64,000 bases of DNA, taken from the NCBI RefSeq assembly GCF_036711975.1, contig NC_091975.1, forward strand, positions 14,820,501 through 14,884,500, given 5' to 3'. Both the position numbers and the translations under genes were made by a program. A model generated the notes under the pieces. It saw only the letters and a list, made by a program, of their open reading frames with translations. It made no database searches and was not told the origin of the DNA. This DNA comes from Onthophagus taurus (Eukaryota > Arthropoda > Insecta > Coleoptera > Scarabaeidae). Shown here in pieces: positions 1,219-64,000 of this stretch; the first letter of the stretch is position 1; every line of letters begins with the position of its first letter.

Positions 1219-1352
1219 CATGATGTTAATAATTTCGAATGACTGTTAATAAGTAAGTTGATTCTAATGATTTTTAATATCTATGTTGATTCTAATAATT
1301 TTTAATATGTAAGTTGATTCTAATGATTGTCAATATGTAAGTTGATTCTAAT
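1219..1352. repeat. Spacer plus inverted island 1 in the satellite
   Basis: A unique spacer beginning CATGATGTTAATAATTTCG is followed by about 109 bp of satellite units in reverse orientation. At 1353 the orientation flips back through a near-perfect palindrome (TTGATTCTAAT, C, ATTAGAATCAA). The same cassette recurs at 2641, 14477, 16935 and 18945. Confidence 0.9.
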
Positions 1353-2640
1353 CATTAGAATCAACTTATGTATTAAAAATCATTAGAATCAACTTAGATA
1401 TTAAAAATCATTAGAATCAACTTAGATATTAAAAATCATTTGAATCAACTTAGATAATAAAAATCATTAGAATCAACTTAGATATTAAAAATCATTAGAA
1501 TCAACTTAGATATTAAAAATCATTAGAATCAAGTTACTTATTAACAATCATTAGAATCAACTTAGATATTAAAAATCATTATAATCAACTTATACATTAA
1601 AAATCATTAGAATCAACTTTGATATTAAAAATCATTAGAATCAATTTAGATATTAAAAATCATTAGAATCAGCTTAGATATTAAAAATCATTAGAATCAA
1701 CTTATATATTAAGAATCATTAGAATCAACTTAGATATTAAAAATCATTAGAATCAACTTAGATATTAAAAATCATTAGAATCAACTTATACATTAAAAAT
1801 CATTAGAAGCAACTTACATATTAAAAATCATTAGAATCAACTTTGATATTAAAAATCATTAGAATCAATTTAGATATTAAAAATCATTAGAATCAACTTA
1901 GATATTAAAAATCATTAGAATCAACTTATACATTAAAAATCATTAGAAGCAAATTACATATTAAAAATCATTAGAATCAATTTAGATATTAAAAATCATT
2001 AGAAGCAACTTACATATTAAAAATCATTAGAATCAAATTACATATTAAACATCATTAGAATCAATTTAGATATTAAAAATCATTAGAAGCAACTTACATA
2101 TTAAAAATCATTAGAATCAAATTACATATTAAACATCATTAGAATCAATTTAGATATTACAAATCATTAGAATCAACTTAGATATTAAAAATCATTTGAA
2201 TCAACTTAGATAATAAAAATCATTAGAATCAACTTACATATTAAAAATCATTAGAATCAACTTAGATATTAAAAATCATTAGAATCAACTTATATATTAA
2301 AGATCATTAAAATCAACTTAGATATTAAAAATCATTAGAATCAACTTACTTATTAACAATCATTAGAATCAACTTAGATATTAAAAATCATTAGAATCAA
2401 CTTAGATATTAAAAATCATTAGAATCAACTTATATATTAAAAGTCATTAGAATCAACTTACATATTAAAAATCATTAGAATCAACTCAGATATTAAAAAT
2501 CATTAGAATCAACTTACATATTAAAAATCATTAAAATCAACTTCGATATTAAAAATCATTGGAATCAACTTAGATATTATAAATCATTAGAATCAAATTA
2601 TATATTAAAAATCATTAGAATCAAATTATATATTAAAAAT

Positions 2641-2774
2641 CATGATGTTAATAATTTCGAATGACTGTTAATAAGTAAGTTGATTCTAATGATTTTTAAT
2701 ATCTATGTTGATTCTAATAATTTTTAATATGTAAGTTGATTCTAATGATTGTCAATATGTAAGTTGATTCTAAT
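2641..2774. repeat. Spacer plus inverted island 2
   Basis: Copy of the cassette at 1219, 1422 bp downstream, with the same spacer, the same inverted units and the same switch-back palindrome. The identity of flanking variants on both sides shows that it arose by duplication of a block of about 1.4 kb. Confidence 0.9.
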
Positions 2775-5700
2775 CATTAGAATCAACTTATGTATTAAAA
2801 ATCATTAGAATCAACTTAGATATTAAAAATCATTAGAATCAACTTAGATATTAAAAATCATTTGAATCAACTTAGATAATAAAAATCATTAGAATCAACT
2901 TAGATATTAAAAATCATTAGAATCAACTTTGATATTAAAAATCATTAGAATCGATTTAGATATTAAAAATCATTTGAATCAACTTACATAATAAAAATCA
3001 TTGGAATCAACTTAGATATTAAAAATCATTAGAATCAACTTTGATATTAAAAATCATTTGAATCAACTTAGATAATAAAAATCATTAGAATCAACTTAGA
3101 TATTAAAAATCATTAGAATCAAGTTACTTATTAACTATCATTAGAATCAACTTAGATATTAAAAATCATTAGAATCAACTTAGATATTAAAAATCATTTG
3201 AATCAACTTACATAATAAAAATCATTGGAATCAACTTAGATATTAAAAATCATTTGAATCAACTTAGATAATAAAAATCATTAGAATCAACTTAGATATT
3301 AAAAATCATTAGAATCAACTTAGATATTAAAAATCATTAGAATCAACTTAGATATTAAAAATCATTTGAATCAACTTAGATAATAAAAATCATTAGAATC
3401 AACTTAGATATTAAAAATCATTAGAATCAACTTTGATATTAAAAATCATTAGAATCAATTTAGATATTAAAAATCATTAGAATCAACTTAGATATTAAAA
3501 ATCATTTGAATCAACTTAGATAATAAAAATCATTAGAATCAACTTAGATATTAAAAATCATTAGAATCAACTTAGATATTAAAAATCATTAGAATCAACT
3601 TAGATATTAAAAATCATTAGAATCAGCTTAGATATTAAAAATCATTAGAATCAACTTACATATTAAAAATCATTAGAATCAACTTAGATATTAACAATCA
3701 TTTGAATCAACTTAGATATTAAAAATCATTAGAATCAACTTAGATATTAAAAATCATTAGAATCAACTTAGATATTAAAAATCATTAGAATCAAGTTACT
3801 TATTAACAATCATTAGAATCAACTTAGATATTAAAAATCATTATAATCAACTTATACATTAAAAATCATTAGAATCAACTTTGATATTAAAAATCATTAG
3901 AATCAACTTACATATTAAAAATTATTAGAATCAACTTAGATATTAAAAATCATTAGAATCAACTTAGATATTAAAAATCATTTGAATCAACTTAGATAAT
4001 AAAAATCATTAGAATCAACTTAGATATTAAAAATCATTTGAATCAACTTAGATAATAAAAATCATTAGAATCAACTTAGATATTAAAAATCATTAGAATC
4101 AAGTTACTTATTAACAATCATTAGAATCAACTTAGATATTAAAAATCATTTGAATCAACTTAGATATTAAAAATCATTAGAATCAACTTAGATATTAAAA
4201 ATCATTAGAATCAACTTAGATATTAAAAATCATTAGAATCAGCTTAGATATTAAAAATCATTAGAATCAACTTACATATTAAAAATCATTAGAATCAACT
4301 TAGATATTAACAATCATTTGAATCAACTTAGATATTAAAAATCATTAGAATCAACTTAGATATTAAAAATCATTAGAATCAACTTAGATATTAAAAATCA
4401 TTAGAATCAAGTTACTTATTAACAATCATTAGAATCAACTTAGATATTAAAAATCATTATAATCAACTTATACATTAAAAATCATTAGAATCAACTTTGA
4501 TATTAAAAATCATTAGAATCAACTTACATATTAAAAATTATTAGAATCAACTTAGATATTAAAAATCATTAGAATCAACTTAGATATTAAAAATCATTTG
4601 AATCAACTTAGATAATAAAAATCATTAGAATCAACTTAGATATTAAAAATCATTAGAATCAAGTTACTTATTAACAATCATTAGAATCAACTTAGATATT
4701 AAAAATCATTTGAATCAACTTAGATAATAAAAATCATTAGAATCAACTTACATATTAAAAATCATTAGAATCAACTTTGACATTAAAAATCATTAGAATC
4801 AACTTAGATATTAAAAATCATTAGAATCAACTTAGATATTAAAAATCATTAGAATCAACTTAGATATTAAAAATCATTAGAATCAACTTAGATAATAAAA
4901 ATCATTTGAATCAACTTAGATAATAAAAATCATTAGAATCAACTTAGATATTAAAAATCATTAGAATCAAGTTACTTATTAACTATCATTAGAATCAACT
5001 TAGATATTAAAAATCATTAGAATCAACTTAGATATTAAAAATCATTAGAATCAACTTAGATATTAAAAATCATTAGAATCAACTTTGATATTAAAAATCA
5101 TTTGAATCAACTTAGATAATAAAAATCATTAGAATCAACTTAGATATTAAAAATCATTAGAATCAACTTAGATATTAAAAATCATTAGAATCAACTTAGA
5201 TATTAAAAATCATTTGAATCAACTTAGATAATAAAAATCATTAGAATCAACTTAGATATTAAAAATCATTTGAATCAACTTAGATAATAAAAATCATTAG
5301 AATCAACTTAGATATTAAAAATCATTAGAATCAACTTAGATATTAAAAATCATTAGAATCAACTTTGATATTAAAAATCATTAGAATCAACTTAGATATT
5401 AAAAATCATTAGAATCAACTTTGATATTAAAAATCATTTGAATCAACTTAGATAATAAAAATCATTAGAATCAACTTTGATATTAAAAATCATTAGAATC
5501 AACTTACATAATAAAAATCATTTGAATCAACTTAGATAATAAAAATCATTAGAATCAACTTTGATATTAAAAATCATTAGAATCAACTTACATAATAAAA
5601 ATCATTGGAATCAACTTAGATATTAAAAATCATTAGAATCAACTTTGATATTAAAAATCATTTGAATCAACTTAGATAATAAAAATCATTAGAATCAACT

Positions 5701-8700
5701 TAGATATTAAAAATCATTAGAATCAACTTAGATATTAAAAATCATTAGAATCAACTTAGATATTAAAAATCATTTGAATCAACTTAGATAATAAAAATCA
5801 TTAGAATCAACTTAGATATTAAAAATCATTTGAATCAACTTAGATAATAAAAATCATTAGAATCAACTTAGATATTAAAAATCATTAGAATCAACTCAGA
5901 TATTAAAAATCATTAGAATCAACTTAGATATTAAAAATCATTTGAATCAACTTAGATAATAAAAATCATTAGAATCAACTTAGATATTAAAAATCATTTG
6001 AATCAGCTTAGATAATAAAAATCATTAGAATCAACTTAGATATTAAAAATCATTAGAATCAACTTTGATATTAAAAATCATTAGAATCAACTTATACATT
6101 AAAAATCATTAGAATCAACTTAGATATTAAAAATCATTAGAATCAAGTTACTTATTAACTATCATTAGAATCAACTTAGATATTAAAAATCATTAGAATC
6201 AACTTAGATATTAAAAATCATTAGAATCAACTTAGATATTAAAAATCATTAGAATCAACTTTGATATTAAAAATCATTTGAATCAACTTAGATAATAAAA
6301 ATCATTAGAATCAACTTAGATATTAAAAATCATTAGAATCAACTTAGATATTAAAAATCATTAGAATCAACTTAGATATTAAAAATCATTTGAATCAACT
6401 TAGATAATAAAAATCATTAGAATCAACTTAGATATTAAAAATCATTTGAATCAACTTAGATAATAAAAATCATTAGAATCAACTTAGATATTAAAAATCA
6501 TTAGAATCAACTTAGATATTAAAAATCATTAGAATCAACTTTGATATTAAAAATCATTAGAATCAACTTAGATATTAAAAATCATTAGAATCAACTTTGA
6601 TATTAAAAATCATTTGAATCAACTTAGATAATAAAAATCATTAGAATCAACTTTGATATTAAAAATCATTAGAATCAACTTACATAATAAAAATCATTTG
6701 AATCAACTTAGATAATAAAAATCATTAGAATCAACTTTGATATTAAAAATCATTAGAATCAACTTACATAATAAAAATCATTGGAATCAACTTAGATATT
6801 AAAAATCATTAGAATCAACTTTGATATTAAAAATCATTTGAATCAACTTAGATAATAAAAATCATTAGAATCAACTTAGATATTAAAAATCATTAGAATC
6901 AACTTAGATATTAAAAATCATTAGAATCAACTTAGATATTAAAAATCATTTGAATCAACTTAGATAATAAAAATCATTAGAATCAACTTAGATATTAAAA
7001 ATCATTTGAATCAACTTAGATAATAAAAATCATTAGAATCAACTTAGATATTAAAAATCATTAGAATCAACTCAGATATTAAAAATCATTAGAATCAACT
7101 TAGATATTAAAAATCATTTGAATCAACTTAGATAATAAAAATCATTAGAATCAACTTAGATATTAAAAATCATTTGAATCAGCTTAGATAATAAAAATCA
7201 TTAGAATCAACTTAGATATTAAAAATCATTAGAATCAACTTTGATATTAAAAATCATTAGAATCAACTTATACATTAAAAATCATTAGAATCAACTTAGA
7301 TATTAAAAATCATTAGAATCAACTTTGATATTAAAAATCATTAGAATCGATTTAGATATTAAAAATCATTTGAATCAACTTACATAATAAAAATCATTGG
7401 AATCAACTTAGATATTAAAAATCATTAGAATCAACTTTGATATTAAAAATCATTTGAATCAACTTAGATAATAAAAATCATTAGAATCAACTTAGATATT
7501 AAAAATCATTAGAATCAACTTAGATATTAAAAATCATTTGAATCAACTTACATAATAAAAATCATTGGAATCAACTTAGATATTAAAAATCATTAGAATC
7601 AACTTAGATATTAAAAATCATTTGAATCAACTTAGATAATAAAAATCATTAGAATCAACTTAGATATTAAAAATCATTTGAATCAACTTAGATAATAAAA
7701 ATCATTAGAATCAACTTAGATATTAAAAATCATTAGAATCAACTTAGATATTAAAAATCATTAGAATCAACTTAGATATTAAAAATCATTTGAATCAACT
7801 TAGATAATAAAAATCATTAGAATCAACTTAGATATTAAAAATCATTTGAATCAGCTTAGATAATAAAAATCATTAGAATCAACTTAGATATTAAAAATCA
7901 TTAGAATCAACTTTGATATTAAAAATCATTAGAATCAACTTATACATTAAAAATCATTAGAATCAACTTAGATATTAAAAATCATTAGAATCAACTTAGA
8001 TATTAAAAATCATTAGAATCAACTTAGATATTAAAAATCATTCGAATCAACTTAGATAATAAAAATCATTAGAATCAACTTACATATTAAAAATTATTAG
8101 AATCAACTTAGATATTAAAAATCATTAGAATCAACTTAGATAATAAAAATCATTAGAATCAACTTAGATATTAAAAATCATTAGAATCAACTTAGATATT
8201 AAAAATCATTAGAATCAACTTAGATATTAAAAATCATTAGAATCAACTTAGATATTAAAAATCATTAGAATCAACTTAGATATTAAAAATCATTTGAATC
8301 AACTTAGATAATAAAAATCATTAGAATCAACTTAGATATTAAAAATCATTTGAATCAACTTAGATAATAAAAATCATTAGAATCAACTTAGATATTAAAA
8401 ATCATTTGAATCAGCTTAGATAATAAAAATCATTAGAATCAACTTAGATATTAAAAATCATTAGAATCAACTATGATATTAAAAATCATTAGAATCAACT
8501 TATACATTAAAAATCATTAGAATCAACTTAGATATTAAAAATCATTAGAATCAAGTTACTTATTAACAATCATTAGAATCAACTTAGATATTAAAAATCA
8601 TTTGAATCAACTTAGATAATAAAAATCATTAGAATCAACTTACATATTAAAAATCATTAGAATCAACTTTGATATTAAAAATCATTTGAATCAGCTTAGA

Positions 8701-11700
8701 TATTAAAAATCATTAGAATCAACTTAGATATTAAAAATCATTAGAATCAACTTAGATATTAAAAATCATTAGAATCAACTTAGATATTAAAAATCATTAG
8801 AATCAACTTAGATATTAAAAATCATTAGAATCAACTTAGATATTAAAAATCATTTGAATCAACTTAGATAATAAAAATCATTAGAATCAACTTAGATATT
8901 AAAAATCATTAGAATCAAGTTACTTATTAACAATCATTAGAATCAACTTAGATATTAAAAATCATTTGAATCAACTTAGATAATAAAAATCATTAGAATC
9001 AACTTACATATTAAAAATCATTAGAATCAACTTTGATATTAAAAATCATTTGAATCAACTTAGATATTAAAAATCATTAGAATCAACTTAGATATTAAAA
9101 ATCATTAGAATCAACTTAGATATTAAAAATCATTAGAATCAACTTAGATATTAAAAATCATTTGAATCAACTTAGATATTAAAAATCATTTGAATCAACT
9201 TAGATAATAAAAATCATTAGAATCAACTTAGATATTAAAAATCATTAGAATCAAGTTACTTATTAACTATCATTAGAATCAACTTAGATATTAAAAATCA
9301 TTAGAATCAACTTAGATATTAAAAATCATTAGAATCAACTTAGATATTAAAAATCATTAGAATAAACTTAGATATTAAAAATCATTAGAATCAACTTAGA
9401 TATTAAAAATCATTAGAATCAAGTTACTTATTAACAATCATTAGAATCAACTTAGATATTAAAAATCATTCGAATCAACTTAGATAATAAAAATCATTAG
9501 AATCAACTTACATATTAAAAATTATTAGAATCAACTTAGATATTAAAAATCATTAGAATCAACTTAGATATTAAAAATCATTTGAATCAACTTAGATAAT
9601 AAAAATCATTAGAATCAACTTAGATATTAAAAATCATTAGAATCAAGTTACTTATTAACAATCATTAGAATCAACTTAGATATTAAAAATCATTTGAATC
9701 AACTTAGATAATAAAAATCATTAGAATCAACTTACATATTAAAAATCATTAGAATCAACTTTGATATTAAAAATCATTTGAATCAGCTTAGATATTAAAA
9801 ATCATTAGAATCAACTTAGATATTAAAAATCATTAGAATCAACTTAGATATTAAAAATCATTAGAATCAACTTAGATAATAAAAATCATTTGAATCAACT
9901 TAGATAATAAAAATCATTAGAATCAACTTAGATATTAAAAATCATTAGAATCAAGTTACTTATTAACTATCATTAGAATCAACTTAGATATTAAAAATCA
10001 TTAGAATCAAGTTACTTATTAACTATCATTAGAATCAACTTAGATATTAAAAATCATTAGAATCAACTTAGATATTAAAAATCATTAGAATCAACTTAGA
10101 TATTAAAAATCATTAGAATAAACTTAGATATTAAAAATCATTAGAATCAACTTAGATATTAAAAATCATTAGAATCAAGTTACTTATTAACAATCATTAG
10201 AATCAACTTAGATATTAAAAATCATTCGAATCAACTTAGATAATAAAAATCATTAGAATCAACTTACATATTAAAAATTATTAGAATCAACTTAGATATT
10301 AAAAATCATTAGAATCAACTTAGATATTAAAAATCATTAGAATCAACTTCGATATTAAAAATCATTAGAATCAACTTACTTATTAACAATCATTAGAATC
10401 AACTTAGATATTAAAAATCATTAGAATCAACTTATACATTAAAAATCATTAGAAGCAACTTACATATTAAAAATCATTAGAATCAACTTTGATAATAAAA
10501 ATCATTAGAATCAACTTAGATATTAAAAATCATTAGAATCAACTTAGATATTAAAAATCATTAGAATCAACTTAGATATTAAAAATCATTAGAATCAACT
10601 TAGATATTAAAAATCATTCGAATCAACTTAGATATTAAAAATCATTAGAATCAACTTAGATATTAAAAATCATTAGAATCAACTTAGATATTAAAAATCA
10701 TTAGAATCAACTTAGATATTAAAAATCATTCGAATCAACTTAGATATTAAAAATCATTAGAATCAACTTAGATATTAAAAATCATTAGAATCAACTTAGA
10801 TATTAAAAATCATTAGAATCAAGTTACTTATTAACAATCATTAGAATCAACTTAGATATTAAAAATCATTAGAATCAACTTATACATTAAAAATCATTAG
10901 AAGCAACTTACATATTAAAAATCATTAGAATCAACTTTGATAATAAAAATCATTAAAATCAACTTAGATATTAAAAATCATTAGAATCAACTTAGATATT
11001 AAAAATCATTTGAATCAACTTAGATAATAAAAATCATTAGAATCAACTCAGATATTAAAAATCATTAGAATCAACTTAGATATTAAAAATCATTAGAATC
11101 AACTTAGATATTAAAAATCATTAGAATCAACTTAGATATTAAAAATCATTTGAATCAACTTAGATAATAAAAATCATTAGAATCAACTTAGATATTAAAA
11201 ATCATTAGAATCAACTTAGATATTAAAAATCATTAGAATCAAGTTACTTATTAACAATCATTAGAATCAACTTAGATATTAAAAATCATTATAATCAACT
11301 TATACATTAAAAATCATTAGAATCAACTTTGATATTAAAAATCATTAGAATCAATTTAGATGTTAAAAATCATTAGAATCAGCTTAGATATTAAAAATCA
11401 TTAGAATCAACTTATATATTAAGAATCATTAGAATCAACTTAGATATTAAAAATCATTAGAATCAACTTAGATATTAAAAATCATTAGAAGCAACTTACA
11501 TATTAAAAATCATTAGAATCAACTTTGATATTAAAAATCATTAGAATCAATTTAGATATTAAAAATCATTAGAATCAACTTAAATATTAAAAACATTAGA
11601 ATCAACTTATACATTAAAAATCATTAGAAGCAAATTACATATTAAAAATCATTAGAATCAATTTAGATATTAAAAATCATTAGAAGCAACTTACATATTA

Positions 11701-14476
11701 AAAATCATTAGAATCAACTTACATATTAAACATCATTAGAATCAATTTAGATATTACAAATCATTAGAATCAACTTAGATATTAAAAATCATTTAAATCA
11801 ACTTAGATAATAAAAATCATTAGAATCAACTTACATATTAAAAATCATTAGAATCAACTTATACATTAAAAATCATTAGAAGCAACTTACATATTAAAAA
11901 TCATTAGAATCAACTTTGATAATAAAAATCATTAGAATCAACTTAGATATTAAAAATCATTAGAATCAACTTAGATATTAAAAATCATTTGAATCAACTT
12001 AGATAATAAAAATCATTAGAATCAACTTAGATATTAAAAATCATTAGAATCAACTTAGATATTAAAAATCATTAGAATCAACTTAGATATTAACAATCAT
12101 TTGAATCAACTTAGATATTAAAAATCATTAGAATCAACTTAGATATTAAAAATCATTTGAATCAACTTAGATAATAAAAATCATTAGAATCAACTTAGAT
12201 ATTAAAAATCATTAGAATCAACTTAGATATTAAAAATCATTAGAATCAAGTTACTTATTAACAATCATTAGAATCAACTTAGATATTAAAAATCATTATA
12301 ATCAACTTATACATTAAAAATCATTAGAATCAACTTTGATATTAAAAATCATTAGAATCAATTTAGATGTTAAAAATCATTAGAATCAGCTTAGATATTA
12401 AAAATCATTAGAATCAACTTATATATTAAGAATCATTAGAATCAACTTAGATATTAAAAATCATTAGAATCAACTTAGATATTAAAAATCATTAGAAGCA
12501 ACTTACATATTAAAAATCATTAGAATCAACTTTGATATTAAAAATCATTAGAATCAATTTAGATATTAAAAATCATTAGAATCAACTTAAATATTAAAAA
12601 CATTAGAATCAACTTATACATTAAAAATCATTAGAAGCAAATTACATATTAAAAATCATTAGAATCAATTTAGATATTAAAAATCATTAGAAGCAACTTA
12701 CATATTAAAAATCATTAGAATCAACTTACATATTAAACATCATTAGAATCAATTTAGATATTACAAATCATTAGAATCAACTTAGATATTAAAAATCATT
12801 TAAATCAACTTAGATAATAAAAATCATTAGAATCAACTTACATATTAAAAATCATTAGAATCAACTTATACATTAAAAATCATTAGAAGCAACTTACATA
12901 TTAAAAATCATTAGAATCAACTTTGATAATAAAAATCATTAGAATCAACTTAGATATTAAAAATCATTAGAATCAACTTAGATATTAAAAATCATTTGAA
13001 TCAACTTAGATAATAAAAATCATTAGAATCAACTTAGATATTAAAAATCATTAGAATCAACTTAGATATTAAAAATCATTAGAATCAACTTAGATATTAA
13101 CAATCATTTGAATCAACTTAGATATTAAAAATCATTAGAATCAACTTAGATATTAAAAATCATTTGAATCAACTTAGATAATAAAAATCATTAGAATCAA
13201 CTTAGATATTAAAAATCATTAGAATCAACTTAGATATTAAAAATCATTAGAATCAAGTTACTTATTAACAATCATTAGAATCAACTTAGATATTAAAAAT
13301 CATTATAATCAACTTATACATTAAAAATCATTAGAATCAACTTTGATATTAAAAATCATTAGAATCAATTTAGATATTAAAAATCATTAGAATCAGCTTA
13401 GATATTAAAAATCATTAGAATCAACTTATATATTAAGAATCATTAGAATCAACTTAGATATTAAAAATCATTAGAATCAACTTAGATATTAAAAATCATT
13501 AGAATCAACTTATACATTAAAAATCATTAGAAGCAACTTACATATTAAAAATCATTAGAATCAACTTTGATATTAAAAATCATTAGAATCAATTTATACA
13601 TTAAAAATCATTAGAATCAACTTTGATATTAAAAATCATTAGAATCAATTTAGATATTAAAAATCATTAGAATCAGCTTAGATATTAAAAATCATTAGAA
13701 TCAACTTATATATTAAGAATCATTAGAATCAACTTAGATATTAAAAATCATTAGAATCAACTTATACATTAAAAATCATTAGAAGCAAATTACATATTAA
13801 AAATCATTAGAATCAATTTAGATATTAAAAATCATTAGAAGCAACTTACATATTAAAAATCATTAGAATCAAATTACATATTAAACATCATTAGAATCAA
13901 TTTAGATATTAAAAATCATTAGAAGCAACTTACATATTAAAAATCATTAGAATCAAATTACATATTAAACATCATTAGAATCAATTTAGATATTACAAAT
14001 CATTAGAATCAACTTAGATATTAAAAATCATTTGAATCAACTTAGATAATAAAAATCATTAGAATCAACTTACATATTAAAAATCATTAGAATCAACTTA
14101 GATATTAAAAATCATTAGAATCAACTTATATATTAAAGATCATTAAAATCAACTTAGATATTAAAAATCATTAGAATCAACTTACTTATTAACAATCATT
14201 AGAATCAACTTAGATATTAAAAATCATTAGAATCAACTTAGATATTAAAAATCATTAGAATCAACTTATATATTAAAAGTCATTAGAATCAACTTACATA
14301 TTAAAAATCATTAGAATCAACTCAGATATTAAAAATCATTAGAATCAACTTACATATTAAAAATCATTAAAATCAACTTCGATATTAAAAATCATTGGAA
14401 TCAACTTAGATATTATAAATCATTAGAATCAAATTATATATTAAAAATCATTAGAATCAAATTATATATTAAAAAT

Positions 14477-14610
14477 CATGATGTTAATAATTTCGAATGA
14501 CTGTTAATAAGTAAGTTGATTCTAATGATTTTTAATATCTATGTTGATTCTAATAATTTTTAATATGTAAGTTGATTCTAATGATTGTCAATATGTAAGT
14601 TGATTCTAAT
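14477..14610. repeat. Spacer plus inverted island 3
   Basis: Third copy of the spacer and inverted island, far from the first two but with the same internal variants (CTATGTTGATTC, GATTGTCAATATG). Confidence 0.9.
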
Positions 14611-16934
14611 CATTAGAATCAACTTATATATTAAAAATCATTAGAATCAACTTAGATATTAAAAATCATTAGAATCAACTTAGATATTAAAAATCATTTG
14701 AATCAACTTAGATAATAAAAATCATTAGAATCAACTTAGATATTAAAAATCATTAGAATCAACTTAGATAATAAAAATCATTAGAATCAACTTAGATATT
14801 AAAAATCATTAGAATCAAGTTACTTATTAACTATCATTAGAATCAACTTAGATATTAAAAATCATTAGAATCAACTTAGATATTAAAAATCATTTGAATC
14901 AACTTACATAATAAAAATCATTGGAATCAACTTAGATATTAAAAATCATTAGAATCAACTTTGATATTAAAAATCATTTGAATCAACTTAGATAATAAAA
15001 ATCATTAGAATCAACTTAGATATTAAAAATCATTAGAATCAACTTAGATATTAAAAATCATTAGAATCAACTTAGATATTAAAAATCATTTGAATCAACT
15101 TAGATAATAAAAATCATTAGAATCAACTTAGATATTAAAAATCATTAGAATCAACTTTGATATTAAAAATCATTAGAATCAATTTAGATATTAAAAATCA
15201 TTAGAATCAACTTAGATATTAAAAATCATTTGAATCAACTTAGATAATAAAAATCATTAGAATCAACTTAGATATTAAAAATCATTAGAATCAACTTAGA
15301 TATTAAAAATCATTAGAATCAACTTAGATATTAAAAATCATTAGAATCAGCTTAGATATTAAAAATCATTAGAATCAACTTACATATTAAAAATCATTAG
15401 AATCAACTTAGATATTAACAATCATTTGAATCAACTTAGATATTAAAAATCATTAGAATCAACTTAGATATTAAAAATCATTTGAATCAACTTACATAAT
15501 AAAAATCATTGGAATCAACTTAGATATTAAAAATCATTAGAATCAACTTTGATATTAAAAATCATTTGAATCAACTTAGATAATAAAAATCATTAGAATC
15601 AACTTAGATATTAAAAATCATTAGAATCAAGTTACTTATTAACTATCATTAGAATCAACTTAGATATTAAAAATCATTAGAATCAACTTAGATATTAAAA
15701 ATCATTTGAATCAACTTACATAATAAAAATCATTGGAATCAACTTAGATATTAAAAATCATTAGAATCAACTTTGATATTAAAAATCATTTGAATCAACT
15801 TAGATAATAAAAATCATTAGAATCAACTTAGATATTAAAAATCATTAGAATCAACTTAGATATTAAAAATCATTAGAATCAACTTAGATATTAAAAATCA
15901 TTTGAATCAACTTAGATAATAAAAATCATTAGAATCAACTTAGATATTAAAAATCATTAGAATCAACTTTGATATTAAAAATCATTAGAATCAATTTAGA
16001 TATTAAAAATCATTAGAATCAACTTAGATATTAAAAATCATTTGAATCAACTTAGATAATAAAAATCATTAGAATCAACTTAGATATTAAAAATCATTAG
16101 AATCAACTTAGATATTAAAAATCATTAGAATCAACTTAGATATTAAAAATCATTAGAATCAGCTTAGATATTAAAAATCATTAGAATCAACTTACATATT
16201 AAAAATCATTAGAATCAACTTAGATATTAACAATCATTTGAATCAACTTAGATATTAAAAATCATTAGAATCAACTTAGATATTAAAAATCATTAGAATC
16301 AACTTAGATATTAAAAATCATTAGAATCAACTTAGATATTAAAAATCATTAGAATCAAGTTACTTATTAACAATCATTAGAATCAACTTAGATATTAAAA
16401 ATCATTATAATCAACTTATACATTAAAAATCATTAGAATCAACTTTGATATTAAAAATCATTAGAATCAATTTAGATATTAAAAATCATTAGAATCAGCT
16501 TAGATATTAAAAAGCATTAGAATCAACTTATATATTAAGAATCATTAGAATCAACTTAGATATTAAAAATCATTAGAATCAACTTAGATATTAAAAATCA
16601 TTAGAATCAACTTTGATATTAAAAATCATTAGAATCAATTTAGATATTAAAAATCATTAGAATCAGCTTAGATATTAAAAATCATTAGAATCAACTTACA
16701 TATTAAAAATCATAAGAATCAACTTAGATATTATAAATCATTAGAATCAACTTAGATATTATAAATCATTAGAATCAACTTATATATTAAGAATCATTAG
16801 AATCAACTTAGATATTAAAAATCATTAGAATCAACTTAGATATTAAAAATCATTAGAATCAAATTAGATATTATAAATCATTAGAATCAAATTATATATT
16901 AAAAATCATTAGAATCAAATTATATATTAAAAAT

Positions 16935-17068
16935 CATGATGTTAATAATTTCGAATGACTGTTAATAAGTAAGTTGATTCTAATGATTTTTAATATCTAT
17001 GTTGATTCTAATAATTTTTAATATGTAAGTTGATTCTAATGATTGTCAATATGTAAGTTGATTCTAAT
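16935..17068. repeat. Spacer plus inverted island 4
   Basis: Fourth copy, 2458 bp after the third. The switch-back palindrome is again centred on a single C at 17069. Confidence 0.9.
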
Positions 17069-18944
17069 CATTAGAATCAACTTATATATTAAAAATCATT
17101 AGAATCAACTTAGATATTAAAAATCATTAGAATCAACTTAGATATTAAAAATCATTTGAATCAATTTAGATAATAAAAATCATTAGAATCAACATAGATA
17201 TTAAAAATCATTAGAATCAACTTAGATATTAAAAATCATTGGAATCAACTTTGATATTAAAAATCATTTGAATCAACTTACATATTAAAAATCATTAGAA
17301 TCAACTTAGATATTAAAAATCATTAGAATCAACTTATATATTAAAGATCATTAAAATCAACTTAGATATTAAAAATCATTAGAATCAACTTACTTATTAA
17401 CAATCATTAGAATCAACTTAGATATTAAAAATCATTAGAATCAACTTAGATATTAAAAATCATTAGAATCAACTTATATATTAAAAGTCATTAGAATCAA
17501 CTTACATATTAAAAATCATTAGAATCAACTCAGATATTAAAAATCATTAGAATCAACTTACATATTAAAAATCATTAAAATCAACTTACTTATTAACAAT
17601 CATTAAAATCAACTTCGATATTAAAAATCATTGGAATCAACTTAGATATTAAAAATCATTTGAATCAACTTATATATTAAGAATCATTAGAATCAACTTA
17701 GATATTAAAAATCATTAGAATCAACTTAGATATTAAAAATCATTAGAATCAACTTTGATATTAAAAATCATTAGAATCAATTTAGATATTAAAAATCATT
17801 AGAATCAGCTTAGATATTAAAAATCATTAGAATCAACTTACATATTAAAAATCATTAGAATCAACTTAGATATTAACAATCATTTGAATCAACTTAGATA
17901 TTAAAAATCATTAGAATCAACTTAGATATTAAAAATCATTAGAATCAACTTAGATATTAAAAATCATTAGAATCAAGTTACTTATTAACAATCATTAGAA
18001 TCAACTTAGATATTAAAAATCATTATAATCAACTTATACATTAAAAATCATTAGAATCAACTTTGATATTAAAAATCATTAGAATCAATTTAGATATTAA
18101 AAATCATTAGAATCAGCTTAGATATTAAAAATCATTAGAATCAACTTATATATTAAGAATCATTAGAATCAACTTAGATATTAAAAATCATTAGAATCAA
18201 CTTAGATATTAAAAATCATTAGAATCAACTTTGATATTAAAAATCATTAGAATCAATTTAGATATTAAAAATCATTAGAATCAGCTTAGATATTAAAAAT
18301 CATTAGAATCAACTTACATATTAAAAATCATTAGAATCAATTTAGATATTAAAAATCATTAGAAGCAACTTACATATTAAAAATCATTAGAATCAACTTA
18401 CATATTAAACATCATTAGAATCAATTTAGATATTACAAATCATTAGAATCAACTTAGATATTAAAAATCATTTGAATCAACTTAGATAATAAAAATCATT
18501 AGAATCAACTTACATATTAAAAATCATTAGAATCAACTTAGATATTAAAAATCATTAGAATCAACTTATATATTAAAGATCATTAAAATCAACTTAGATA
18601 TTAAAAATCATTAGAATCAACTTACTTATTAACAATCATTAGAATCAACTTAGATATTAAAAATCATTAGAATCAACTTAGATATTAAAAATCATTAGAA
18701 TCAACTTATATATTAAAAGTCATTAGAATCAACTTACATATTAAAAATCATTAGAATCAACTCAGATATTAAAAATCATTAGAATCAACTTACATATTAA
18801 AAATCATTAAAATCAACTTACTTATTAACAATCATTAAAATCAACTTCGATATTAAAAATCATTGGAATCAACTTAGATATTATAAATCATTAGAATCAA
18901 ATTATATATTAAAAATCATTAGAATCAAATTATATATTAAAAAT

Positions 18945-19478
18945 CATGATGTTAATAATTTCGAATGACTGTTAATAAGTAAGTTGATTCTAATGATTTT
19001 TAATATCTATGTTGATTCTAATAATTTTTAATATGTAAGTTGATTCTAATGATTGTCAATATGTAAGTTGATTCTAATGATTTTTAATATGTATGTATGT
19101 TGATTTTAATGATTTTCAATATGTAAGTTGATTCTAATGATTGTCAATATGTAAGTTGATTCTAATGATTTTTAATATGTATGTATGTTGATTCTAATGA
19201 TTTTTAATATGTATGTATGTTGATTCTAATGATTTTTAATATGTAAGTTGATTCTAATGATTTTTAATATCTAAGTTGATTCTAATGATTTTTAATATGT
19301 AAGTTGATTCTAATGATTGTCAATATGTAAGTTGATTCTAATGATTTTTAATATGTATGTATGTTGATTCTAATGATTTTAATATGTATGTATGTTGATT
19401 CTAATGATTTTTAATATGTAAGTTGATTCTAATGATTTTTAATATCGAAGTTGATTCTAATGATTTTTAATATGTAAT
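18945..19478. repeat. Terminal inverted run of the satellite
   Basis: Fifth spacer copy. Here the orientation does not flip back: inverted units continue to the array edge, with TATGTATGT expansions between some units. The array therefore ends in reverse orientation, as does the second array at 33134-33766. Confidence 0.9.
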
Positions 19479-32154: not shown

Positions 32155-33779
32155 TTCATTAGAATCAACTTAGATACTAAAAACCATTAGAATCAACTTA
32201 CATATTAAAAATCATTAGAATCAACTTACATATTAAAAATCATTAGAATCAACTTAGATACTAAAAATCATTAGAATCAACTTACATACTAAAAATCATT
32301 GGAATCAACTCAGATATTAAAAATCATTAGAAATAACTTAGATATTAAAAATCATTAGCATCAACCTAGATATTAAAAGTCATTAGAATCAATTTACATA
32401 TTAAAAATCATTAGAATCAACTTAGATATTAAAAATCATTAGAATCAACTTAGATATTAAAAATCATTAGAATCAACTTAGATATTAAAAATCATTAGAA
32501 TCAACCTAGATATTAAAAATCATTAGAATCAACTTCAATATTAAAAATCATTACAATCAACTTAGATATTAAAAATCATTAGAATCAACTTCGATATTAA
32601 AAATCATTAGAATCAACTTACTTATTAACAATCATTAGAATCAACCTAGATATTAAAAATCATTAGAATCAACTTAGATATTAAAAATCATTAGAATCAA
32701 CTTCGATATTAAAAATCATTAGAATCAACTTCAATATTAAAAATGATTAGAATCAACTTACATATTAAAAATCATTACAATCAACTTAGATATTAAAAAT
32801 CATTAGAATCAACTTCGATATTAAAAATCATTAGAATCAACTTAGATATTAAAAATCATTAGAATCAACCTAGATATTAAAAATCATTAGAATCAACTTA
32901 GATATTAAAAATCATTAGAATCAGCTTAGATATTAAAAATCATTAGAATGAACTTAGATATTAAAAATCATTAGAATCAACCTAGATATTAAAAATCATT
33001 GGAATCAACTTAGATATTAAAAGTCATTAGAATCAGCTTAGATATTAAAAATCATTAGAATCAACTTAGATATTAAAAATCATTAGAATCAAATTATATA
33101 TTAAAAATCATGATGTTAATAATTTCTAATGACTGTTAATAAGTAAGTTGATTCTAATGATTTTTAATATCGAAGTTGATTGTAATGATTTTTAATATCT
33201 AAGTTGATTCTAATGATTTTTAATATCTAAGCTGATTCTAATGATGTTTAATATCTAAGTTGATTCTAATGATTTTTAATATCGAAGTTGATTGTAATGA
33301 TTTTTAATATCTAAGTTGATTCAAATGATTTTTAATATCTGAGTTGATTCGAATGATTTTTAATATGCATGTATGTTGATTTTATTGATTTTTGATATGT
33401 ATGTATGTTGATTCTAATGATTTTTAATATCTAAGTTGATTCAAATGATTTTTAATATCTAAGTTGATTCTAATGATTTTTAATATCTGAGTTGATTGTA
33501 ATGATTGTTAATATAGAAGTTGATTCTAATGATTTTTAATATCGAAGTTGATTCTAATGATTGGTAATAAGTAAGCTGATTCTAATGATTTTTAATATGT
33601 AAGTTGATTCTAATGATTTTTAATATCTATAATGTTTCTAATGATTTTTATTACCTAAGTTGATTCTAATGATTTTTAATATCTAAGTTGATTCTAATGA
33701 TTTCTAATATCTAAGTTGATTCTAATGATTTTTAATATCTAAGTTGATTCTAATGATTCTTAAATCATTAGAATCAACT
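32155..33779. repeat. Second 28-bp array with direct and inverted arms
   Basis: The same unit as in 1-19478. Direct orientation runs from 32155 to about 33108, then the CATGATGTTAATAATTTC spacer at 33109, then reverse orientation from about 33134 to 33766, ending in a small hairpin (TAATGATT … AATCATTA). This is a foldback layout with unequal arms. Units are more diverged than in the first array (GGAATC, CTAGAT, TTCGAT variants), suggesting an older copy. It ends flush against an alpha-tubulin fragment. Confidence 0.95.
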
Positions 33780-43439: not shown

Positions 43440-43733
43440 ATGAGTGGGTATTATCAGATTCCGATAAATGAACAATCTAAACATTTAACCGCGTTTGTGA
43501 CGACCGAGGGACAATTCGAATTTAATAAAATGCCGTTTGGTTTGGTAAACGCACCAAATGTATTTAATACTCTTATGCAGCGTGTCGTGCAACGCATTGG
43601 ACCGAACATTGCTTTAACATATATGGACGATATGCTAATACCGAGGGATACAGTAGCGGAGGGTATCGCGAAACTACGAAAAGTGTTGGGAGTATTGCGA
43701 GAGCTAGGCTTAACATTAAAACTCAGTAAATGA
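43440..43733 (+). pseudogene. Reverse transcriptase, catalytic part
   Basis: Continues the RT frame after the stop: MSGYYQIPINEQSKHLTAF, FEFNKMPFGLVNAPNVF, and the polymerase active site YMDDML. Ends at LKLSK, where a short deletion and frameshift remove the region normally reading C.FF before DYLGFEI. Confidence 0.88.
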
Positions 43734-45793
43734 TAGATTACCTGGGGTTTGAAATTGATAGTGAGGGTATACGGCCGGGTGAGCAAAAAACCCAAGCTGT
43801 AATGAATTTTGAGACACCGACGAATGTTCACGAAGTTAGACAATTCTTGGGATTATGCGGATTCTTTCGAAAGTTTGTACAAGGGTTCTCATTGATAGCC
43901 AGACCATTAACAGAATTGACCAAGACAGATCGGGCTTTTGAGTGGAATGAGTTGCAGGAGAAAGCATTCCAAACGCTGAAAGATAGATTGACCCAAAAAC
44001 CGATACTAGCACTCTATGATTGTAGAGCAGAATTGGAAGTACATACAGATGCTTGTAAGGACGGTCTTGCAGGCATGCTTCTGCAGAAAAATGATAAAGG
44101 AACATTTCAACCATTGGCTTATTATAGCCGAAAGACGACCGAATTGGAGGCCAAGTACCATAGCTATGAACTTGAAGCATTGGCAGTAGTGGAAGCCATA
44201 GATAGATTCAGAATATACGTATTGGGACGACACTTTACAGTAGTTACTGATTGCAATTCTCTGAAAACAATCATGACAAAGAAATATATGACGCCGAGGA
44301 TTGGGCGATGGCTCTTGAAGTTACAAGAATACGACTTTTCTGTTATACATCGATCGGGAGAAAGGATGTCACATATTGACGCCTTGAGTAGACACCCAAA
44401 TGAGCCTGGAAAGGAACCAGAAGAAGCTGATCTGAAGATCAACACCTTAAGAATCGATGAAGCTGACTGGTTGCTGACGATGCAGCTCCAGGATGAAAAT
44501 CTAAAGCGGATATACAAAGTTTTAGTAGAGAACCGTACAGAGACACTAGAAGACAAACAAATTAATACCGACTATGAGATCGAGGAAAATAGAATTTGTC
44601 GAAAAACTGATGACGGACCGAAATGGGTTGTTCCTAAGGGAGTGATTTGTCGTGTTATAGAAGAGAGTCACGATAAAATGGGACATTATGGAGTCGAGAG
44701 AACGTTGAAGAACCTACAACGACAGTATTGGTTTGCAAAGATGAGGAAAAAGGTGAAGAATTACATATCCTCTTGCGTAAGATGCGCGTACCACAAAGCC
44801 GTGAAAGGAAGACTCGAAGGAGAACTACACATAATAGAGAGAGTACCAATTCCATTTCATACGGTGAACATGGATCACTTAGGACCATTTGTCAATAGTG
44901 CAAGGAGGCATGATTATGTTCTGTTGTACCAGGACAACTTCACGAAGTACACGATATTGCGAGCGGTAAAATCGACAAAAACAAAACCTGTCGTGAATAC
45001 TTTGAAAGATGTCTTTAGTTATTTTGGAACACCACATCGTTTAATAACCGATAGAGCGACATCATTTACGTCGAAGGAATTTGAGAAATTCTGTGAAGAA
45101 AACCAAATTAAACATATTCGTAATGCTACAGCAACGCCAAGAGCAAATGGGCAGGTGGAAAGACAAAACCAAACCCTTTTGACTGCATTAACAACCATGT
45201 ATGAAGACGAAGACGGAAGAGATTGGGACAGGCGAATCCAAGAAATTCAGTTTGCATTAAATGACGCTGAAAACAAGACAACAGGAAAGACGCCCCACCA
45301 ACTGCTTTTTGGATATCATCCGAGAAATGCCTTACAAAACCAGATAGCATTAGCTGTGAGTAAACTTGACTATCCCAAAGACATTGACAACTTACGAATA
45401 GACGCAGTACGACGAATTGGTGAACAACAACAAAAGGATAAGAAGTATTTTGATCAGAAGCACAAACAACCTCAAACATATAATGTTGACGACATTGTGT
45501 TAGTGAAACGCGAGTTAGCGGAAACGGGACATTCGCGAAAACTATTGCCCAAATACAAAGGACCTTATATAGTGACGCGAGTGGTCGGAAACGACAGATA
45601 CGTGATAAATGACATTCCGGGAGCACAACGATGTGCTAAACCATTTAACGCTGTTTTCTGTTCAGGGTTAATAAAGCCGTGGTGTACCCTTACCGAAGAA
45701 GATACGGATGATAGTGACCGGGAAGATGAGGGCCCTGAGGCGGAAGGCACTCCGCCAGGTCAGGAAGGCCGAGTTGTTGGCGAACGACAATAG
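43730..45793 (+). pseudogene. RT C-terminus, RNase H and integrase
   Basis: A 687-codon open frame. It starts at IDYLGFEIDSEGIRP (RT connection), then RNase H (HTDACKDGLAGMLLQ, YSRKTTELEAKYHSYELEAL, TDCNSL, IDALSRHP). The integrase follows: zinc-binding HH-CC (SHDKMGHYGVERTL … SCVRCAYHK), DDE core with NMDHLGPF, LITDRATSF and ANGQVERQNQ, and a C-terminal domain (LLPKYKGPYIVTRVV). The frame ends 19 bases inside the 3' LTR. This is the best preserved part and has no internal stop; it is called a pseudogene because the polyprotein upstream is broken. Confidence 0.9.
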
Positions 45794-45983: not shown

Positions 45984-46650
45984 GAAGCATGACATAATTG
46001 AGATAACTGTTTGGTCTGAATTATCGCTTTTACTTTGTCATCATTTTCAGTCCCGGATAATATACTATCAGCACATACAAAAAGAAAATTGTTATATATT
46101 CAGCTCAATATTTATACTCTAATTTTCTACTACTTAATTTTGAGACCCCTTGGTAAATAATCCTTAGTTAATTATTGCACCATCAGAAAGTCTAATAATA
46201 TATCCTCATTGCTGTCGGCACTTCAAATGTTTTCTGAGTTATGGAAGTGTGGCGAAGAGCGACGAAGTAATGGGGTTCAATGGAAGAAGTTAGGTAGAAC
46301 GCATAGTGTTTAACAGTAACTTATGTTTGTATTAATATAATCCGGGTTAGCGCGCACGCAGACCCTACTACCAAAAATTACGCGCCCGAGTTACCCGCAT
46401 TAGGGGTAATCGCAGGGGTCAGCCCGACTGAAGTGCAATGGAAGGGCCTCGTCCTGGGGGAACCGCCTTATTGATGACGGTAGCCCCTACGCCAGGTAAG
46501 TATGCTTTTCTGGGGCAACCGACCCTCTTGCCTATACGATATGAAAGTATCTAGTAACTAGAATAAATACGCGCCATCTGTAGACGCGACACAAACAATA
46601 ATCAGGCGTTGGTAAGAATAATGTAGATCGCATTTCCTTATATACAGGGT
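45984..46650. other. Spacer with a GC-rich block
   Basis: No gene seen. 46340-46530 is markedly GC-rich for this region (GCGCGCACGCAGACCC, GGTAATCGCAGGGGTC) and may be a fragment of an unrecognised transposon. Not assigned. Confidence 0.4.
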
Positions 46651-61615: not shown

Positions 61616-62528
61616 TTATGATATATCTTTATTTGATATCCAAGAATTATGGGATAAATCGAATCCTAACCATTTTACGTACAACTTTCACGAGGTAAAC
61701 GTTGGGTTGAGCGGCCCTTTGAAGTTCGAATTCGTAAAAAGCGCCTTTAATCGGCTGGCCACGCACATCCTCCAATAAATATGAAATTGGATTTGTGATA
61801 TTCACTTTAACGATTTTAAACAATTCGGCGGTCCAGTTGGGCAGATATCCTTTATCAAACACATGTTTATATTTACTGATACGAACAGCGTCTCCAACTC
61901 TAAACTTTCCTCTGCCGGCAATTTTAATATGATTGTACACTGTATCGAGAAGTTTATTCTCTACCGATTTCGAATTTATTTCAGACGGTTTCATTTTCGT
62001 AGTCGAATGTTTCGTACTGTTATATCGAGATGTTATATCCTCCAATAGGTGCACCCATTTATGATTTCCATATAGACTGAAGAACTTGTAGATTCTTTGT
62101 TTAACGGTTCGAATTACACGTTCAGCCATCGACGCTTTCATAACGCTATACGATGAAAAATGATTAATTTTAAAATCCGACATCAACCGTTTAAATTGAC
62201 TGTTGTAGAACTCTTTGCCCTGATCGGTTTGTAGATTTCGAGGCGCGCGACCGTCGTCTGTGAGAATTGAGCGTAGCGCTGCGGTGACGTCCGTAGAATT
62301 TTTACTTTTTAACGGACGCGTCCAAAGAAACTTGGAGAAACAGTCTATAACCACTAATATATATTTATATCCGGAATTCAATCTGGCAAACTCAATCATT
62401 TCAATTAGATCCGCCTGCCATAGATCATCGATCCCCTTCAGGATGGTTCTTCGTCTAGCGAAAATACGTCTAGTGGGGCGATGGAGCTCCTCCACAATGA
62501 CACGTTTCGCATCTGACACCTTCTCCAT
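61616..62528 (-). pseudogene. P2 integrase, Polinton/Maverick type with broken chromodomain
   Basis: ATG 62526-62528 (MEKVSDAKRVIVEELHRP). DDE core intact: WQADLIEM and YILVVIDCFSKFLWTRPL (first Asp), RNLQTDQGKEFYNSQF (second Asp), SMAERVIRTVKQR (Glu), then HSTTKMKPSEINSK, VGDAVRISKYKHVF and LPNWTAELFKIV. The main frame stops at 61647, but the next frame reads YVKWLGFDLSHNSWISN to TAA at 61616-61618: this is the core of a chromodomain, the usual C-terminal module of Polinton integrases. A small deletion with frameshift near 61680 separates it. Catalytic part could be functional; chromodomain targeting lost unless this is a sequence error. Supports assignment of P2 to Polinton/Maverick-like elements. 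Confidence 0.85.
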
Positions 62529-62544
62529 TGTGACAATTAAGGTT

Positions 62545-63154
62545 TGAGACCAACCTTTTTCTCTAATATATCAAGTCGGGAAAATATAGCGGAATGCATG
62601 AGGTCAACTCGCGACTTTTGCGCACCGATCGACTGTCGTATATTCGATATGAGCGTATAATCACCGATAGACGATTTGTAATGCGATTTAGATTCAAAGG
62701 TATATCGGTGTTTACCGTTTTAATTAGCGATGCGATCTGTCCGGTCTTAGATGGGTCTAATAAATTCGATACATCTTCGATATTCGATTTGTTAAGCTTT
62801 ACTTGATTTAATAAATTAGTGAATTCCGTTTTAATTGCGTCCCCCAACTTTGTTAATCGATCGGAAAGTTGAGTTAAATCACCAGAGACGTCCGAGTAAT
62901 TTCGATTAATAACATCTGTGAACTTTGTCGCCGTATCAGTTAATTCGTTGGAAATTTCGGTAATTTTTACGCCGCTAACATAAATTTTAGCATGCAGATT
63001 TTTAATATCGGATACCCAATGCGATTTTAAATTTAAAATCTGATCCTCGATCGCTTCGATTGAAGGCTTTAAATTTCCAGAAACTTGAAGATCGATATAT
63101 TTCTTGCTGGCATCGAATTCATCACGTAGGGTTTGAATCTCCGAAGTAGTATAA
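62545..63154 (-). pseudogene. P2 long coiled-coil gene, frameshifted
   Basis: Minus strand, upstream of the integrase. From about 63154: SEIQTLRDEFDASKKYIDL, IEAIEDQILNLKSHWVSDI, ITEISNELTDTATKFTDVI, LTQLSDRLTKLGDAIKTEF, LNQVKLNKSNIEDVSNLL, all heptad-like. A one-base shift near 62668 leads to IGDYTLISNIRQSIG … SRLDILEKKVG, the ending shared with P1. About 200 residues; no ATG is evident upstream, so the N-terminus is undefined. May be a fibre-like structural protein or an accessory of integration. Function not known. Confidence 0.6.
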
Positions 63155-63339
63155 GAAGGAGAGTTCTGGAGCAGGATTATCCCATATCTTGCGCTCTGTG
63201 ATTGGTTGAAATGCCAATATGGCGGTCAAAAATTTAGTAACTTTTAGGGATTTTCATTTTACATGTTGTCAATGAATCTCAATTATGTTGGTACTACTGA
63301 GGGTGGAGGGAATGCAAATTTTTTTAATATAAATAAAAG

Positions 63340-63380
63340 TAGGGTGACCGTCAATATATAAAAATTACGATTTATGATTC
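63340..63380 (+). promoter_or_regulatory. TATA promoter of the PPP1R15-like gene
   Basis: TATATAAAAATT at about 63354-63365, some 125 bp before the ATG at 63487, with a CCAATATGG (NF-Y/CCAAT-like) box at about 63220. A splice-donor-like GGTGAGTAA occurs at about 63468, between promoter and ATG; no acceptor is seen before the ATG. Confidence 0.45.
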
Positions 63381-63486
63381 GTGCTACAATTAGGACTAAG
63401 TGTGTGAAAGTGAAAGGAGAATTAAAAAAAAAAACAACAAACGTTACAGTGAACTTGTATTTTAAAGGTGAGTAATATACATTGAA

Positions 63487-63681
63487 ATGAAGCGTGTTAA
63501 ATTTAAAGAAGATTTAGATGTGTATTATATTGATGAAGACGAATATAGCAAAAATGCTAGAAACGGATCGGAATGGTTGCAAGCAGCTGCAGATAGGTAT
63601 CGTTTTAAGAGACGTATTGAAGAAACTGAAAAATTATTGTATGAAATATTACGTAAAAAAAATGAGAAATTAAATAAATAA
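63487..63681 (+). CDS. Stand-alone PPP1R15/GADD34-like core protein (64 residues)
   Basis: ATG 63487, TAA 63679. The protein starts MKRVKFKEDLDVYYI: RVKF is a consensus RVxF docking motif for protein phosphatase 1, at residues 3-6, followed by a hydrophobic strand. After an acidic linker comes ARNGSEWLQAAADRYRFKRR (residues 22-41) and IEETEKLLYEIL. Spacing of RVxF, Ala-Arg-x-Gly, Trp and a Asp-Arg-x-Arg-Phe-x-Arg-Arg-Ile helix is that of the C-terminal core of PPP1R15 (GADD34/CReP), which brings PP1 to phosphorylated eIF2alpha. Host PPP1R15 proteins are several hundred residues; here only the core exists, as in the short viral members of this family. Expected role: reverse eIF2alpha phosphorylation and keep translation going. 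Assignment from motif spacing; no search made. Confidence 0.7.
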   Translation: MKRVKFKEDLDVYYIDEDEYSKNARNGSEWLQAAADRYRFKRRIEETEKLLYEILRKKNEKLNK

Positions 63682-63714
63682 AACACTTTAAATGGTATTT
63701 AATATATTATTTAT

Positions 63715-64000
63715 TTAAATATGTAATCTTATGTATGGTTCTATTAGGTTTAAAACATCTACATAATCTTGTGTGTTTGTAGAGGGCCAATGTGCCGAAT
63801 CAGGACCGGATTGCCATCCAACTGGTTTCCCTTTAGCTCCATTTCTCATGTTGTTTATTAACCATGCCATTATATTCTGGTGTGATATTCGCGACAGTGG
63901 CTCAAAGTTAAATTCATAGTTGAGTGCTTTGAAAACTTGTATACATCTTTTTACAAATTCATTGTCTGCACAATAGAATGCATCGCAAATCAATTTATCA
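63715..64000 (-). CDS. Unidentified gene, C-terminal part, runs off the right edge
   Basis: The minus-strand frame is open from the window edge to the stop at 63715. It reads LICDAFYCADNEFVKRCIQVF, LSRISHQNIMAWLINNMRNG, WQSGPDSAHWPSTNTQDY, VDVLNLIEPYIRLHI. About 95 residues visible, no start codon in the window. Convergent with the PPP1R15-like gene, with only 33 bp between the two stop codons. Not recognised. Confidence 0.5.
   Translation of the reverse strand, partial: DKLICDAFYCADNEFVKRCIQVFKALNYEFNFEPLSRISHQNIMAWLINNMRNGAKGKPVGWQSGPDSAHWPSTNTQDYVDVLNLIEPYIRLHI

Follow-up and report, generated by a model that had tools for sequence, protein, structure and literature searches.

Near the right end of a 64,000-nucleotide stretch of Onthophagus taurus DNA (C10:14820501-14884500, hereafter the window), a gene of 64 codons encodes a stand-alone, minimal PPP1R15 core and lies at the left end of a nested Polinton that we call element A. 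Related genes recur near capsid genes in the 290.8 Mb of genome that we searched. Judging from sequence comparisons, we propose that the minimal PPP1R15 core is a Polinton/Maverick accessory gene whose product would recruit PP1 and G-actin to dephosphorylate eIF2alpha and thereby undo translational shut-off; we put the probability of this reading at a little under four in five.

The encoded protein, MKRVKFKEDLDVYYIDEDEYSKNARNGSEWLQAAADRYRFKRRIEETEKLLYEILRKKNEKLNK, is 64 residues long and carries every motif listed in the original prediction: RVKF at residues 3-6, Ala-Arg-x-Gly (here A-R-N-G) at 24-27, a Trp at 30 and RYRFKRRI at 37-44. The TATA-like sequence that had been pointed out is also present, its role as a promoter being putative (Table 1). 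Between it and the ATG, at 63468-63475 and within the terminal repeat, AAAG followed by GTGAGTAA makes a strong 5' splice-site-like sequence. A similar AAAGGTGA string also precedes another ORF at the right end of element A, and the sequence at 63468 may therefore belong to a shared leader and not mark a splice site. The promoter region is itself partly repeated at the right end (83% over 70 bp). Elsewhere in the window, a 28-bp AT-rich satellite of ~677 copies fills the first 18.9 kb (window 1-19477) and then flips orientation, and a second head-to-head pair of arrays of the same satellite lies at 32156-33111 and 33124-33763. A full-length match to U1 spliceosomal RNA (129.5 bits) occupies 46341-46503 on the minus strand, near a retroelement polyprotein ORF with RNase H and integrase at 43730-45793.

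Table 1. Features of the PPP1R15-like gene, element A and the interrupted outer Polinton (window positions, except where C10 is given).
Feature	Position	Strand	Remarks
Integrase (rve) of outer Polinton	61647..62570	-	PF00665, E 9.5e-14
Outer Polinton ORF cut by element A	62563..63138	-	Listed frame, to 63225, enters the terminal repeat
6-bp target-site duplication, left copy	63139..63144		Identical 6-mers on both sides of element A
Left terminal inverted repeat of element A	63145..63557	+	413 bp; begins AGTAGT; inner edge within the gene
Element A, part in the window	63145..64000		Whole element C10:14883645-14898968, 15,324 bp; runs off the window to the right
TATA-like TATATAAAA	63355..63363	+	Within the terminal repeat; seen in the sequence, putative
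PPP1R15-like gene	63487..63681	+	64 aa; identified by homology and genome copies
AATAAA	63677..63682	+	Overlaps the stop codon of the gene; seen in the sequence
242-aa ORF of element A, 3' part	63715..64000	-	Continues past the window end; without Pfam match
6-bp target-site duplication, right copy	C10:14898969-14898974		Directly after element A

The proposed identity as a stand-alone PPP1R15/GADD34-like gene was confirmed by Pfam, by phmmer against the PDB and by a profile of related sequences. Residues 2-51 match Pfam PF10488 (PP1c_bdg) with an E-value of 2.7e-5 and a score of 24.4 bits, a little under the curated cut-off of 26.1; three further Pfam models gave E-values of 0.017-0.034, all under their own cut-offs. 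Two sequences of group C (the groups are described below) exceed the PF10488 cut-off, with 27.7 and 28.6 bits, and the scores elsewhere are 15.3 and 18.8 for two group B copies, 19.3 for a diverged group A copy and 14.7 for group D. In the PDB, the window protein matches African swine fever virus (ASFV) DP71L at 1.2e-5, PPP1R15B at 8.3e-4 and PPP1R15A at 0.18. Profile A1, made of eight sequences that all come from the same genome as the window, matches these proteins significantly, at 1.5e-11, 1.6e-8 and 2.4e-8, respectively, the first unrelated protein following at 0.53. When P0001 alone was used as the query against the protein database there was no match; profile A1 and profile A2, the latter from an alignment of seven sequences (groups A-F and P0005), found five short proteins. 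Two of these, P0004 and P0006, from contigs no longer than 2.4 kb, match groups D and E. The other three, P0005, P0007 and P0008, are each 75 aa long, PPP1R15-like and stand-alone, and lie on ENA contigs of 19.6, 7.8 and 24.4 kb, respectively. Viral contigs yielded no relative in PPP1R15-type scans, nor with the element B capsid protein as query.

That the host is an insect shows in its genome too, with 49 matches at E <= 1e-10 to PF02949 (7tm_6), the insect odorant receptor family. From this genome we pooled 204 PPP1R15-like loci in seven groups, A-G. One search gave 77 genome matches, in which eight copies, the window's included, encode an identical protein and group A accounts for 12 full and three partial loci. 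Group B has 41 loci (39-52% identical). We examined one element B copy closely (L011, L012): there an inverted repeat of ~1.7 kb, its outer limit blurred by tandem repeats, encloses the whole gene, which is hence present at both ends. Group C has seven loci, and in the ORFs read its module continues in frame into an accessory protein marked by a D-(V/I/M)-Q-G-F motif; this protein is a separate ORF in A and B, and stands behind the PPP1R15-like module as a fusion in C and G. The D-x-Q-G-F protein occurs in A, B, C and G (L009 7922-8440, minus strand; L012 3007-3516, plus; L013 2989-3657, plus; L072); for the versions in A, B and C, Pfam yielded no match to the protein itself. Most of the 147 matches to a group F query belong to groups D and E, which we separated on identity class and on a few copies that were fetched, and E is among the two largest groups. 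Group F is represented by a single copy and group G by a single broken, fused one, a Polinton setting being claimed for neither.

Eight columns of alignment A2 are invariant (V4, W30, D36, R39, F40, R43, I44 and L55), and the relatives keep these positions at 21-48% identity to the window protein. Six of them, W30, D36, R39, F40, R43 and I44, are the equivalents of W582, D588, R591, F592, R595 and I596 in human PPP1R15A. There, W582 contacts PP1, D588 and R591 contact eIF2alpha, and F592 and R595 contact actin (PMC8500838). For PPP1R15B, the account in PMC4394352 names the Arg-pocket residue R658 together with W662, F672 and I676, and describes I676, the counterpart of I596, as important for activation by actin. 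The RVxF motif is R3-V4-K5-F6 in the window protein; V-x-F is retained in the B, C, D and F sequences of A2, with Ser preceding Val in the B ORF, and Ile replaces the Phe in group E, so that PP1 binding may be weak there. The putative PP1 Arg-pocket arginine is found five residues before the Trp in A and B, four before it in D, E and F, which is the R658/W662 spacing of PPP1R15B, and is lacking in C. Among other sequences, one of the 12 A copies (L024) has D36E together with R3C and V4I; Thr takes the place of I44 in P0008, and Tyr that of R43 in the broken group G copy.

AlphaFold2 (six sequences) predicted strands at residues 3-8 and 11-16 and a single helix at 29-63, with a mean pLDDT of 69.7; the means by tens rise from 50, 56 and 61 over residues 1-30 to 75, 88 and 89 over residues 31-40, 41-50 and 51-60. 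The predicted shape agrees with the known strand-plus-helix arrangement, its first half being of low confidence. The long helix, which the original prediction had ending in RYRFKRRI, is thus modelled as beginning near Trp30 rather than ending there, and as reaching residue 63.

If the protein works as we propose, the RVxF strand would bind PP1, and the helix from Trp30 onward would form with G-actin a platform that docks eIF2alpha. PP1 would then strip the Ser51 phosphate from eIF2alpha, and translation would stay on during expression of the element's genes in a shut-down host cell. The helix contact residues that such a role would need are present. A core of ~70 residues with PP1 and G-actin is described as an active trimeric phosphatase that dephosphorylates eIF2alpha efficiently in vitro; the same source presents this core as common to viral and invertebrate PPP1R15s, and as weaker in cells than full-length PPP1R15A (PMC10998612). 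Another study describes core fragments of PPP1R15 that suffice to damp the cellular stress response (PMC4394352). The fold might instead have been kept in a PP1-targeting subunit that acts on another substrate, for example an element protein or a host chromatin protein. Group E has lost the RVxF Phe and group C lacks the Arg-pocket residue, yet both keep the helix, and the fusion of the module to an unrelated accessory protein in C and G could retarget PP1. The invariant positions of A2, however, include the eIF2alpha and actin contacts of the human complex and so go beyond those for PP1, and we consider a switch of substrate unlikely.

Element A is a Polinton/Maverick: it has a capsid gene, a type B DNA polymerase, an integrase, terminal repeats and a target-site duplication. 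Inward from the left it carries the 242-aa ORF, polymerase pieces, accessory ORFs, the capsid protein, a penton-like protein and a protease (these last two named by position and resemblance rather than by significant matches), then a 126-aa ATPase-like ORF, PLA2, two ORFs, the integrase and a 222-aa ORF. The double jelly-roll capsid protein matches PF21738 at 3.3e-52 on part of the ORF and at 6.1e-109 in the whole 405-aa frame, and that of element B at 9.9e-109. The polymerase of element A (PF03175, 4e-14) is spread over several frames, and this copy is therefore probably not active; no ORF for such a polymerase was seen in the shorter element B. The PLA2 of element A matches PF08398 at 3.4e-14. 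In element B the integrase matches rve at 1.1e-14, the element A ORF being 86% identical to it over 252 aa, the packaging ATPase matches Pox_A32 at 8.4e-9, the 126-aa ORF of element A resembling its C-terminal half, and a putative cysteine protease matches Peptidase_C48 with an E-value of 0.0061 and 16.8 bits, against a cut-off of 20.7. Between the two elements, the core genes are 89% (capsid), 85% (penton), 96% (PLA2) and 86% (integrase) identical, and a 371-aa and a 122-aa ORF are 89% and 65% identical, as against 48% for the PPP1R15-like genes and 29% for the DVQGF proteins. Either the ends have been exchanged between Polintons or the accessory genes evolve much faster. Fast evolution is frequent in genes that face host defences.

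Most of the scored capsid loci have a PPP1R15-like gene nearby. Of the 126 capsid loci that we scored, an incomplete set drawn from 332 candidates, 96 lie within 4 kb and 115 within 12 kb of a PPP1R15-like locus, leaving 11 without one. When positions were shifted at random by up to 1 Mb (500 runs, the lengths of contigs C12 and C14 being estimated), the number within 12 kb averaged 10.4 and never exceeded 23. Counted in reverse, 125 of the 204 PPP1R15-like loci lie no further than 12 kb from a scored capsid locus. Before counting, we set aside 14 of the 77 rows, of which 11 were stubs of ~26 residues, one was the second piece at C24:451011 and two belonged to group D and were counted in the group F search; the six weakest or decayed of the 147 rows were dropped as well. 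The lack of a significant profile match to PPP1R15, or a gene that was never near capsid genes, would have spoken against the original prediction; the results are the opposite on both points and support its interpretation.

A comparison of groups A and B gave a dN of 0.41 and a dS of 1.40, which is near saturation, and hence a dN/dS of about 0.3. Within B (34 copies) the distinct changes comprise 16 synonymous and 22 nonsynonymous ones, where the expected nonsynonymous share is 0.74 (P = 0.023), and none of the 22 falls at V4, F6, W30, D36, R39, F40, R43 or I44. Within A (12 copies) there are four synonymous and six nonsynonymous changes, which is not significant (P = 0.27); A and B pooled give P = 0.016. 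The counts were made without three partial loci of the 15 in A and seven of the 41 in B (stops, partial frames, diverged ends), and the exclusion of copies with stops or partial frames biases them towards constraint. Pooled pN/pS is 0.27 for A, 0.24 for B and 1.55 for C, the analysis having taken 21 of 41 B loci and five of seven C loci, with few changes in C. We take constraint to be shown between groups A and B; the case for it among the copies of a group is modest.

The modest strength of this evidence, and the stops or truncations seen in some copies, would fit a fragment of a host PPP1R15 that was acquired on a single occasion and then propagated with the element as a functionless passenger. 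Against this stand the A versus B dN/dS, the eight positions kept in such divergent relatives and the presence of a PPP1R15-like locus beside most scored capsid loci, and we regard a passive passenger as very unlikely.

No PPP1R15 of the host itself was found with PF10488 (88 matches), with the group F query (147) or with P0005 (116), in searches that read six frames and were blind to introns. Such searches can miss a gene with introns, and the failure to find a host PPP1R15 is therefore not evidence of its absence; with no such gene found, the capture of the core from a host stays conjectural. Five loci that stood out as different (L069, L076-L079) turned out to be intact or decayed copies of Polinton-type modules or, for L079, to lack the module. 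If the host did have no PPP1R15 of its own, copies from the elements might now be expressed as its eIF2alpha phosphatase subunits. The host searches, however, took no account of introns and scored limited candidates, and no locus that we opened is a clear single-copy, element-free module; service to the host thus strikes us as even less probable than a passenger.

The placement of the gene is where the original prediction needs revision, since it had set the gene beside a Polinton-like element. The gene lies instead inside a different Polinton. The left repeat of element A and its inverted right repeat are 98.5% identical over 411 aligned positions, and 63145 is also where the homology shared by copies elsewhere (L001, L005, L008) begins. 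With element A taken out and its flanks joined at the duplication, the outer Polinton ORF becomes one unbroken frame, and we conclude that element A sits within a gene of the outer Polinton, to which the integrase at 61647-62570 also belongs. Membership of the gene in the left-hand integrase element is thus excluded by the terminal repeat, the 6-bp duplication and the continuous outer frame. Because the left repeat ends inside the gene, at 63557, the full gene is found at the left end and a stub at the right end; the stub has 24 codons in common with the gene and soon afterwards a stop. That the gene belongs to the host or to the outer Polinton and merely adjoins the insertion, as an integrase ~0.9 kb to its left might suggest within the window alone, is hardly credible: the start of the gene falls within the terminal repeat of element A, gene and element recur together at other sites, and there are a target-site duplication and a continuous outer frame. 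The interrupted ORF of the outer Polinton (62563-63138; L010 7475-7996) contains repeats of a coiled-coil-like unit and weakly matches baculovirus PEP (E 4e-5, under the cut-off), and it possibly encodes a fibre-like protein. Another copy, L007 (C10:15109737-15112928), matches the window copy together with its left flank at 99.7% over 1,600 bp, and the nested pair of elements therefore appears to have been duplicated together.

Viral homologues of PPP1R15 were already known from herpes simplex virus (ICP34.5), ASFV (DP71L) and a granulovirus (gp036). The best single match to the window protein, ASFV DP71L (PDB 9nb9, 71 residues in the chain), is likewise a stand-alone minimal core with RVxF, Trp and the RF..RI helix. 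It comes, however, from a large cytoplasmic DNA virus, whereas the window gene comes from an integrating Polinton. The granulovirus gene, coGV-gp036, belongs to a virus whose host genus we take to be Choristoneura. It shares the PPP1R15 core, there carried by a DNA virus of insects as a baculovirus gene, and we liken the two by description rather than by sequence (PMC4394352). The animal proteins PPP1R15A/GADD34 and PPP1R15B/CReP share the C-terminal core of ~70 residues and the six helix positions, but their N-terminal membrane or eIF2gamma-binding extension is absent from the 64-aa protein, and groups C and G have a C-terminal fusion instead. In its setting the gene resembles what is described for vertebrate Mavericks, namely (AGT)2 ends, a 6-bp duplication, a mean length of ~17 kb, repeats of ~400 bp on average and core modules flanked by accessory genes (PMC8097293). 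We found no PPP1R15-type accessory gene named in that study, and its main text does not contain the word phosphatase. The word is also absent from the main text of a study of parasitoid wasps, in which Mavericks are described as abundant and diverse (PMC6035795). Specific searches of open-access full text found no report of a PPP1R15-type gene in Polintons, and broader ones showed none by title among the matches listed, in line with the earlier remark that no such description was known. What appears new is that the viral PPP1R15 core recurs as an accessory gene in insect Polintons, where it takes several forms, fusions among them.

A broader view, which we offer as a speculation with some chance of being right but a greater one of being wrong, is that an eIF2alpha-phosphatase core is an old and near-standard accessory gene of insect Polintons, kept for an infection-like phase in which host translation is shut off, and that Polintons were the reservoir from which large DNA viruses associated with arthropods, granuloviruses and ASFV, obtained their copies. 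The loci add to the natural diversity of the PPP1R15 core, with one variant that lacks the Phe of RVxF and two that are fused to another protein, for studying how the phosphatase chooses its substrate. A gene known for undoing the translational shut-off of stressed or infected cells would be hard to explain in a silent transposon and natural in a virus. If these proteins do dephosphorylate eIF2alpha, they would offer a direct way to test by function whether animal Polintons pass through a virus-like phase.
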